A stretch of DNA of 64,000 bases from Phyllobacterium sp. 21LDTY02-6 (GTDB taxonomy: Bacteria > Pseudomonadota > Alphaproteobacteria > Rhizobiales > Rhizobiaceae). The first letter of the stretch is position 1; the number at the start of each line of letters is the position of its first letter. Location: the NCBI RefSeq assembly GCF_023554255.2, contig NZ_JAMJWD020000004.1, positions 434,001-498,000 of the forward strand. The letters are read 5' to 3'. The position numbers were made by a program, and so were the translations under genes. Shown here one piece after another: positions 14,344-55,454 of the stretch. The notes under the pieces are model-generated. The model worked only from the letters and a program-made list of their open reading frames with translations, had not been told where the DNA came from and searched no databases.

Positions 14344-14694
14344 TCAAAGCTTTGAAAGTCTTACCTCTGCCTTGCCGCACAGCTTCCTGTTGCCGTTCTT
14401 CACCGCTTTGTCGATGATGCCGGAGGCGAGATCCGAAACGACTTCGACCGCGATGTCTTCGGGCAGACCGGTCTCTTGCATGCCGGCGCGCATGGCAGCC
14501 TCGCTGGCCGTGGAATCCGATCCGCAGACATAGGCCCGCGCTTCGAGGAGCGCGGCGCGCTGGAACTTCTTGTTGTAGATTTCGCTCGTACCGCTGTCGG
14601 CCTCATCCATGCTGAAAGCATGAGCGGCCATTCCGCTGCCGAGAAGCGCGGTGCCTAGAATTGTCGCGAATGCGATTGATCTGCCGTAGCGCAT
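14344..14694 (-). CDS. Small secreted protein of unknown function, 116 aa
   Basis: Product of 116 residues with a signal peptide (first about 26 residues, ending MAAHAF) and a mature part with two cysteines (YVCGSDSTASE and RKLCGKAEV), probably a periplasmic disulfide. The family is not recognised. It is monocistronic: upstream lies a 460-base gap that holds a small RNA on the other strand, and downstream an AT-rich gap. Confidence 0.7.
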   Translation of the reverse strand: MRYGRSIAFATILGTALLGSGMAAHAFSMDEADSGTSEIYNKKFQRAALLEARAYVCGSDSTASEAAMRAGMQETGLPEDIAVEVVSDLASGIIDKAVKNGNRKLCGKAEVRLSKL

Positions 14695-14904
14695 CGTACC
14701 GACCTTTCCTCGCGTGGCCGGAAAAATTCAGGAAATCGCCGCCATGCGAACCCTTTATTAACGGATGTGGTGGCGCAGATGTTCCATTCGGCGATTATCA
14801 AGACAATGTGAGGGTGCAACCGCAGGTCATGTTGCGATGCACACGGCGCAATGCTGCTATGCAATATTGTCTATGTCATTTCATCTGCGTTGCGCTATCT
14901 TTGG

Positions 14905-15030
14905 ATCAGGAATTTTCGACGGTATCTCCTCCTCCCGATCCGTCGAAACGGATGGTCTCTTCTCCTCCCAGAAGACCCTCCATAACCAACGAAACCCACC
15001 GCACCTCCTCCCGCGGTGGGTTTTGTTGTT
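14905..15030 (+). ncRNA. Three-hairpin sRNA with CUCCUCCC loops (cuckoo/CcsR or alpha-r14 type)
   Basis: Three successive stem-loops each expose an anti-Shine-Dalgarno motif. Hairpin 1 pairs TTTCGACGG (14914-14922) with CCGTCGAAA (14940-14948), with CTCCTCCTCCC in the loop. Hairpin 2 pairs GGTCT (14954-14958) with AGACC (14973-14977), with CTCCTCCC at 14962-14969. Hairpin 3 pairs AAACCCACCGC (14992-15002) with GCGGTGGGTTT (15013-15023), with CCTCCTCCC in the loop and a T-rich tail (TGTTGTTT), making it an intrinsic terminator. This is the architecture known for the alphaproteobacterial CUCCUCCC-motif sRNAs. The 5' end is estimated and no clear promoter was assigned. Neighbouring genes lie on the other strand. 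Confidence 0.8.
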
Positions 15031-15100
15031 TCAGGACCCGGCTCCTGTCTCAGGACATTTCATTCTCAAAGCTTTCATTGCCATTGCCGTCACACCCGGA

Positions 15101-15133
15101 AATGAAAATGCCGCCTCCCGGAGGAAGCGGCAT
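15101..15133 (-). terminator. Intrinsic terminator of the small lipoprotein gene
   Basis: On the minus strand ATGCCGC (15133-15127) pairs with GCGGCAT (15114-15108), the inner bases CCTCC/GGAGG extend the stem, and the stem is followed by TTTTCATT. It lies 25 bases after the lipoprotein stop codon and also insulates the convergent sRNA. Confidence 0.75.
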
Positions 15134-15157
15134 CTGATCGGCCTACGAAGAACGCGC

Positions 15158-15376
15158 CTATTGCGGACGGGCAGTCTGGATGCGCCGCTGTTCGACGCTC
15201 TCTTCGAATGAAAGCTTCTTCTCCGGCGTTGCCTTTTGCATCAGCTCCTTTGGCGGCGGCACGAAGGACGTATCCGTGACGGGAGATTTGCCGGCAGTAC
15301 CCGGCGTTTTCATTGCGGTCGTGCAACCGGCAATGGCTATGAGTGACAGAACGGCAAGGATGGGAACTGCGCGCAT
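15158..15376 (-). CDS. Small lipoprotein of unknown function, 72 aa
   Basis: Product of 72 residues with a type II signal sequence ending in the lipobox IAGC (Cys at about residue 17), then a short, mainly polar mature part (TSFVPPPKELMQKATPEKK). The start at 15376 has AAAGGA upstream; a longer frame that begins further upstream lacks such a site. No family is recognised. Three 23-bp tandem repeats lie 65-133 bases upstream of the start. Confidence 0.7.
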   Translation of the reverse strand: MRAVPILAVLSLIAIAGCTTAMKTPGTAGKSPVTDTSFVPPPKELMQKATPEKKLSFEESVEQRRIQTARPQ

Positions 15377-18306: not shown

Positions 18307-18405
18307 GCACTGGACTCAACGCTGCATTGCAACAATTGCAGTTTTCAGCCGGGCCGAATTGACGGAGACTTATCAGCGGGAGGGTCAACGATAAAGGGGT
18401 AGAAC

Positions 18406-18549
18406 ATGAGCCTTCGCAACCGCATCAGGAAATACCGTCAATACCGGCAGAACCTCTACGAGTTGAGCGTCTGCACGGACCGCAACCTTGCCGATCTTGG
18501 CATCGCACGCTCCGACATCCGCCGCATCGCCTGGATGGCCTGCAATTGA
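18406..18549 (+). CDS. DUF1127 small arginine-rich protein, 47 aa
   Basis: Short gene read directly from the sequence: 47 codons from the ATG at 18406 to the TGA at 18547-18549, with AAAGGGG upstream. The product has the DUF1127 pattern: a basic RNRIRKYRQYRQNLYEL start, then LSVCTDRNLADLGIARSDIR with the family's L-x-D-I-G-I/L-x-R-x-DI core. DUF1127 proteins in alphaproteobacteria bind RNA and take part in phosphate, stress and sRNA regulation; in Rhodobacter one is co-transcribed with the CUCCUCCC sRNAs. Here the matching sRNA candidate lies about 3.4 kb away rather than next to it. Confidence 0.88.
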   Translation: MSLRNRIRKYRQYRQNLYELSVCTDRNLADLGIARSDIRRIAWMACN

Positions 18550-55262: not shown

Positions 55263-55298
55263 AAAAAACCGGCCTTGCGGGAATCGCAAAAAGGCCGG
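55263..55298 (-). terminator. Intrinsic terminator in the metZ leader
   Basis: On the minus strand CCGGCCTT (55298-55291) pairs with AAGGCCGG (55276-55269), with a short inner stem, followed by six T residues (55268-55263). It lies between the SAM-II aptamer and the metZ start. An alternative pairing of AGGCCCGG just upstream with CCGGCCT would disrupt this stem, as expected for an anti-terminator. Confidence 0.8.
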
Positions 55299-55313
55299 AC
55301 GTGACCGGGCCTC

Positions 55314-55366
55314 TTTTAGCAAATTGTTTTACGTGGCTGCAAGCCGGCCGGCCAAATCACCACGGG
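55314..55366 (-). ncRNA. SAM-II riboswitch aptamer
   Basis: The minus strand from 55366 contains the SAM-II core: CCCGTGGTGATTTGG, CCGGCCGGCTTGCAGCCACG and AAACAATTTGCTAAA, which match the conserved order (GTGATTTG, CCGGCTTGCAGCCACGT, AAACAA, GCTAAA). The element is about 53 nt and lies 82 bases upstream of metZ, the normal target in alphaproteobacteria. Confidence 0.95.
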
Positions 55367-55454
55367 ATAAGATTGCTTTAATCCTCTTGGGCGCTTGCGT
55401 CAATCGGGTGAAACGCTAAAGCTTTCACCGGATTTGACAGGATTTGACGACCAT

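Follow-up and report, generated by a model that had tools for sequence, protein, structure and literature searches.

Does the gap between two minus-strand genes in this Phyllobacterium genome encode a regulatory RNA and, if so, to which family does it belong, what would switch it on and what would it act upon? We address these questions for a 64-kb window (the whole stretch of DNA analyzed), for which a preliminary description had noted a small RNA (sRNA) standing alone in a gap of ∼460 bases, on the strand opposite to its neighbors. The gap indeed measures 463 bases (one neighbor starts at 14694, the other ends at 15158), and both neighbors lie on the minus strand; a search of these two genes with Pfam and NCBIfam matched no family. 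The sRNA matches the Rfam family ar14 (RF02344) with 79.7 bits at a cut-off of 58.8 and covers model positions 1–123 of 123, which bears out the earlier alpha-r14 assignment. The likeness to cuckoo/CcsR RNAs proposed alongside it holds as a resemblance, but we reject membership, as the CcsR1 model (RF02791) scores 20.2 bits, below its threshold of 65.3. A match to RNAI (23.6 versus 47 bits) was taken for chance. Elsewhere in the window, a SAM_alpha riboswitch is found on the minus strand (55294–55373; 77.2 bits, cut-off 36).

The window sRNA is an ordinary new member of the already described ar14 family, which is in print for Phyllobacteriaceae (PMC7143759). It is most probably a trans-acting antisense repressor of transporter mRNAs of the NfeR1 type, activated by a regulator of the LsrB/VtlR type; we infer its expression, the binding of LsrB and the repression of its targets from the features described below (Table 1).

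Table 1. Positions, in the window, of the ar14 sRNA gene and associated features
Feature	Position	Strand	Basis and remarks
Composite LsrB/VtlR-like box, TGCA-N6-GCAA-TG-CTGC-TATGCA	14838–14863	+	-72 to -47 from the sRNA 5′ end
Possible -10 element, CTATCT	14895–14900	+	Reading of the sequence; orthologue consensus TTATTC
ar14-family sRNA gene (predicted transcript)	14910–15028	+	Ends inferred from Rfam match and terminator-like hairpin
Hairpin 1	14914–14948	+	Fold; loop UCCUCCUCCC, 10 nt
Hairpin 2	14950–14981	+	Fold; loop CCUCCC; weakest of the three
Hairpin 3	14987–15028	+	Fold; loop ACCUCCUCCC, 10 nt; U-rich 3′ side, terminator-like
DUF1127 small-protein gene, 47 aa	18406–18549	+	PF06568, 39.3 bits (cut-off 23.3); ∼3.4 kb downstream of the sRNA

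Folding of positions 14908–15030 of the plus strand yields -53.4 kcal/mol (z = -8.1), and none of 200 dinucleotide shuffles is equally stable. Each of the three hairpins carries the anti-Shine-Dalgarno sequence CUCCUCCC. In the entire 64-kb window CTCCTCCC occurs three times on the plus strand (at 14929, 14962, and 15005), always within the sRNA gene, and not once on the minus strand. The motif had been placed in all three loops; this is the case for hairpins 1 and 3, where it is fully unpaired, but in hairpin 2 its first CU is paired and only CCUCCC is left in the loop. Folded alone, hairpin 3 has a z of -6.2 and hairpin 2 is weak (z = -1.7, with 11 of 200 shuffles equally stable). The 9-mer of hairpin 2 is UCUCCUCCC instead of the family 9-mer CCUCCUCCC, and the window sRNA thus departs from the published criterion of an exact CCUCCUCCC in all three loops. 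Three exact 9-mers are present in just 42 of the 98 ar14 matches examined (chosen among the matches listed, as for all family counts below), and an exact 9-mer in every loop is therefore not decisive for membership. The terminator hairpin does carry the motif as described earlier, but not as a peculiarity of this locus: the last 45 nt of the 98 matches contain CTCCTCCC in 83 cases and TCCTCC in 93, and we reject a special role for the terminator-loop motif.

A syntenic ar14 orthologue is found in all 19 other Phyllobacterium genomes examined (20 of 20 with the window's own). The 20 sequences align with a mean column identity of 97%, compared with a protein identity of 44–68% for the two genes adjacent to the sRNA, where found. 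The 116-aa gene and a glycerate-kinase-like ttuD are present at all 20 loci, the small right-hand gene at 17. We scanned 55 ttuD loci for motif triplets and searched 16 of them with Rfam as well. Both approaches returned ar14 at the same four Phyllobacterium loci and at none of the loci from other genera, of which 12 were covered by Rfam and 51 by the triplet scan. This leaves the idea that the sRNA travels with ttuD beyond Phyllobacterium unsupported.

Compensatory changes, which the preliminary description had regarded as telling for the three stems across relatives, are found once in every hairpin. Across 17 distinct orthologues 98.9% of the cells pair, and three pairs are changed on both sides (the shuffle mean is 0.8, and 2 of 500 shuffles reach as many). 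The pair at columns 12/33 of hairpin 1 differs in the window's own sequence, the one at columns 48/67 of hairpin 2 in four of the 17 distinct rows, and the one at columns 91/108 of hairpin 3 in a single row. Sliding the structure by 1–3 columns leaves 40–53% paired cells and at most one two-sided pair, a control that favors the fold because the structure was derived from these same sequences. Further pair types, taken as a measure of covariation, are not in excess over shuffles (351 of 500 as high).

Comparison of the 20 orthologue upstream regions revealed a conserved block (14830–14879) that follows poorly conserved sequence, and a second conserved stretch at 14890–14899. Farther upstream, short conserved stretches at 14752–14785 (e.g. 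14760–14763 and 14781–14785) possibly belong to the divergent promoter of the 116-aa gene. The conserved block contains TGCA-N6-GCA(A/T) from -72 and GCA(A/T)-N3-TG-N3-T from about -62 of the sRNA 5′ end. In Sinorhizobium meliloti, LsrB is reported to bind the NfeR1 promoter at TGCA-N6-GCAT, -72 to -60 (PMC10746234), and an LsrB consensus GCAT-N3-TG-N3-T has been placed at -61 to -49 in PabcR1 (PMC8844928). The window box matches these NfeR1 and AbcR1 sites in place and nearly in sequence, with one mismatch to each published form: it reads TGCA-N6-GCAA at -72 and GCAA-N3-TG-N3-T at 14848–14860. TGCA-N6-GCAT at -72 is present with at most one mismatch in all 20 orthologues, ten of which match exactly, and CAATGCTGCTATGCA is present at 14849–14863 of the window. 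In Brucella, VtlR is reported to control AbcR2 and three DUF1127 genes via the motif CAATGCAGCCATGCA (PMC12595884); reports on LsrB control of the AbcR RNAs in S. meliloti disagree (PMC7486931 versus PMC8844928). We see no clear -35 element upstream of the window sRNA. The box points to LsrB-type control, in which an LsrB/VtlR-like LysR regulator would activate the sRNA's own promoter, and the structure suggests that a transcript of ∼119 nt would end at hairpin 3.

Five ar14 matches at or above cut-off are found in the window's own genome. Three of them (L001:1344–1622, L005:1501–1769, and L004:1501–2168) lie 4–13 nt past the stop codon of a small protein, two trailing DUF1127 genes and one a phasin gene; by Pfam, DUF1127 precedes copies A and E and Phasin_2 precedes copy D. 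This spacing suggests that the three derive from 3′ UTRs. The remaining copy (L003:236–1620) is located 83 nt past an autotransporter gene with TGCATAGCTATTATGCA ∼50 nt upstream, an arrangement unlike that of the window copy, for which we found no DUF1127 ORF ending within 200 nt upstream. Among the 98 ar14 matches, 36 follow a DUF1127 gene (24 in Phyllobacterium, 12 in other genera), nine a phasin gene (six and three, respectively), and 53 neither (20 window orthologues, seven other Phyllobacterium copies, and 26 copies of other genera). Our search found no literature joining DUF1127 or phasin with CCUCCUCCC; as the search did not cover the cuckoo-family and CcaF1 papers, we do not claim these links as unpublished.

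TGCA-N6-GCAT, with at most one mismatch and within 130 nt upstream, precedes all 20 window orthologues, where resampled DNA would give 0.26 per sequence, and, by the same criterion, 14 of the 26 unlinked copies from other genera, where 0.12 would be expected. It is present at one of the seven other unlinked Phyllobacterium copies and at none of the 45 DUF1127- or phasin-linked copies. The number of copies bears on whether the window sRNA is active at all. It could be a conserved but silent paralogue, or one called upon in a narrow range of conditions, with another copy such as A doing most of the work, and the northern blot detection of no more than one of six ar14 copies in S. meliloti (PMC7143759) fits such a division. 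We consider this unlikely, as the RNA and its 50-base upstream block are both conserved in 20 of 20 genomes. The DUF1127-linked copy A, which has the best Rfam score (108 bits), is without a box of its own next to it, and the Rfam score thus does not tell activity.

We favor instead an active repressor, whose loops, copying the anti-Shine-Dalgarno sequence, would pair with G-rich, GGGAGGAG-type ribosome-binding sites. The pattern GGGAGGAG-N3–9-ATG occurs at 37 places in the genome, compared with five for the reversed pattern. We took 30 of the 37 sites, which gave 26 ORFs with a minimum length of 100 aa, and 12 of these encode periplasmic solute-binding proteins. In the control sets, some ORFs of which may be spurious, the count is 3 of 15 for AAGGAGGA (27 of 27 sites taken) and 0 of 16 for AAGGAGAA (30 of 40 sites taken). 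The enrichment is significant against the pooled controls (12/26 versus 3/31, p = 0.002; p = 0.0016 when L165 and L168, which look duplicate, are counted once) and against AAGGAGAA alone (p = 0.0009), but not against AAGGAGGA alone (12/26 versus 3/15, p = 0.09). Pairing energies were compared for 25 of the 26 GGGAGGAG ORFs and 13 of 16 control ORFs; that the GGGAGGAG set pairs with lower energy follows from the way it was chosen. A pattern for the 16S rRNA tail was unmatched in the window's own genome and in the 20 genomes searched, and we claim nothing from this comparison.

Likely targets would be mRNAs for components of transporters, among them periplasmic solute-binding proteins, and pairing would block their translation, as published for the relative in S. 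meliloti. There, the three motifs of NfeR1 are reported to be redundant in their action on translation starts, most of which belong to transporter mRNAs (PMC7143759; PMC10746234). The hairpins of the window sRNA may likewise serve as repeated, largely redundant seeds, the longest being exposed by hairpins 1 and 3. The published NtrBC loop finds no support here. The start region of ntrB is not of the GGGAGGAG type and pairs with the sRNA at -13.5 kcal/mol, a value inside the range seen for control Shine-Dalgarno sites. The NtrC-like motif TGC-N11-GCA, which lies at -116 to -101 in NfeR1 and is described as confined to plant symbionts (PMC10746234), does not occur at 14700–14910. The window sRNA would thus silence transporter translation, without support for an ntrB loop. 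Hairpin 3 also pairs favorably with the leader of the DUF1127 gene 18406–18549 (-20.0 kcal/mol), and this gene may itself be a target.

Both blocking of ribosome sites and titration of regulators had been envisaged as modes of action; the former fits the published work on NfeR1, the latter has gained no support. An RNA acting as a sponge, with C/U-rich loops that titrate a protein or another RNA and leave mRNAs unblocked, would nonetheless explain why one molecule exposes several identical single-stranded motifs. It would also accord with the DUF1127 genes found nearby and beside other ar14 copies, given that the Rhodobacter DUF1127 protein CcaF1 is reported to bind CcsR RNAs (PMC10253847). 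We hold it to be quite improbable, as NfeR1 loop mutants reportedly lose repression of a base-pairing target (PMC10746234) and the loop motif matches Shine-Dalgarno sites in the window's own genome. That 14910–15028 is no sRNA but part of a coding frame or a mere terminator of a neighbor is scarcely credible: two plus-strand ORFs (14661–15137 and 14765–15211) run through the region and hairpin 3 is terminator-like, but one-base length differences among orthologues within hairpins 1 and 2 disrupt every possible reading frame and hence disfavor coding, the strand is opposite to both neighbors, and the match to a curated sRNA model spans its full length.

The repressor reading gains context from the distribution of the composite box. 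The published LsrB consensus by itself is too short for useful searching. The longer pattern considered here draws on the window orthologues and on the genome's own ar15 copy. In its tighter form (at most one mismatch) it has three hits in the 4.6-Mb genome, preceding an ar15 (AbcR) gene, the window sRNA, and the DUF1127 gene linked to ar14 copy A. The boxed ar15 gene adjoins a LysR gene and a trxB-like gene in the order trxB-lysR-abcR. The pattern, relaxed after copy A had been seen, has 59 exact matches in 18 Phyllobacterium genomes, 57 of them before ar14, ar15, or DUF1127 genes; the window orthologues, the ar15 genes, and the DUF1127-ar14 units match partly by construction, because these classes went into the pattern. 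The matches comprise 17 window orthologues, 18 DUF1127-ar14 units, 13 ar15 genes, eight counterparts of the DUF1127 gene 18406–18549, one other DUF1127 gene, and two sites elsewhere; the reversed pattern has none. Two features were not imposed by this construction: the occurrence before lone DUF1127 genes (9 of 59, assigned by sequence likeness, with Pfam covering the gene in the window) and the near absence elsewhere (2 of 59). The eight boxed counterparts are spread over 8 of the 18 genomes, and the gene in the window has a partial box only (TGCA-N6-GCAG, 18328–18341). In the DUF1127-ar14 unit of genome G013, 518 nt separate the box from the sRNA; a G013 copy counted above as following neither gene has its DUF1127 gene further upstream.

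These observations lead us to a tentative proposal, which we regard as possible rather than established. In Phyllobacterium, a single LysR regulator of the LsrB/VtlR type may run ar14 and ar15 sRNAs together with DUF1127 proteins. Some ar14 RNAs would be stand-alone, as in the window, and others released by cleavage from DUF1127 or phasin mRNAs at their 3′ ends, and the DUF1127 proteins would be processing factors or partners of these RNAs, in the manner of CcaF1 and CcsR. If true, this would provide a reason why VtlR/LsrB controls DUF1127 genes at all. What the locus adds is its context: across 18 Phyllobacterium genomes, one composite box is found almost nowhere but before ar14, ar15, and DUF1127 genes. 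Together with the DUF1127- and phasin-linked ar14 copies, the box joins the work on LsrB/VtlR and sRNAs in Rhizobiales with the CcaF1-CcsR unit of Rhodobacter and makes a service of DUF1127 proteins to these sRNAs directly testable.

Among known systems, the window sRNA is closest in kind to NfeR1 of S. meliloti (Smr14C2, SmelC397; RF02344). The two share three hairpins with an anti-Shine-Dalgarno motif per loop, variable stems, a stand-alone gene, target sites of the transporter type, and an LsrB-type TGCA-N6-GCAT box at -72 (one mismatch in the window). Unlike NfeR1, the window copy has the divergent hairpin 2 9-mer, exposing CCUCCC alone, and neither an NtrC-like motif (at 14700–14910) nor a strong ntrB site was found for it. 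With the cuckoo-type CcsR1–4 of Rhodobacter sphaeroides it shares the CCUCCUCCC loops. These RNAs are reported to lie 3′ of ccaF1 (PMC10253847), and it is other ar14 copies that sit directly 3′ of a DUF1127 gene in the same way; the window copy differs in standing alone, in having its own conserved upstream block, and in its RF02791 score. AbcR1 and AbcR2 (ar15, RF02345) resemble it in their published anti-Shine-Dalgarno seed and transporter targets, and the composite box is shared with the genome's own ar15 gene. They belong to another Rfam family and bind Hfq, whereas NfeR1 is described as Hfq-independent (PMC10746234; PMC8844928). Finally, VrsA and Atu1667 of Agrobacterium, which are bound by VtlR, and the Brucella VtlR regulon of AbcR2 and three DUF1127 genes bring the same kinds of genes under one LysR regulator (PMC12595884; PMC7486931).
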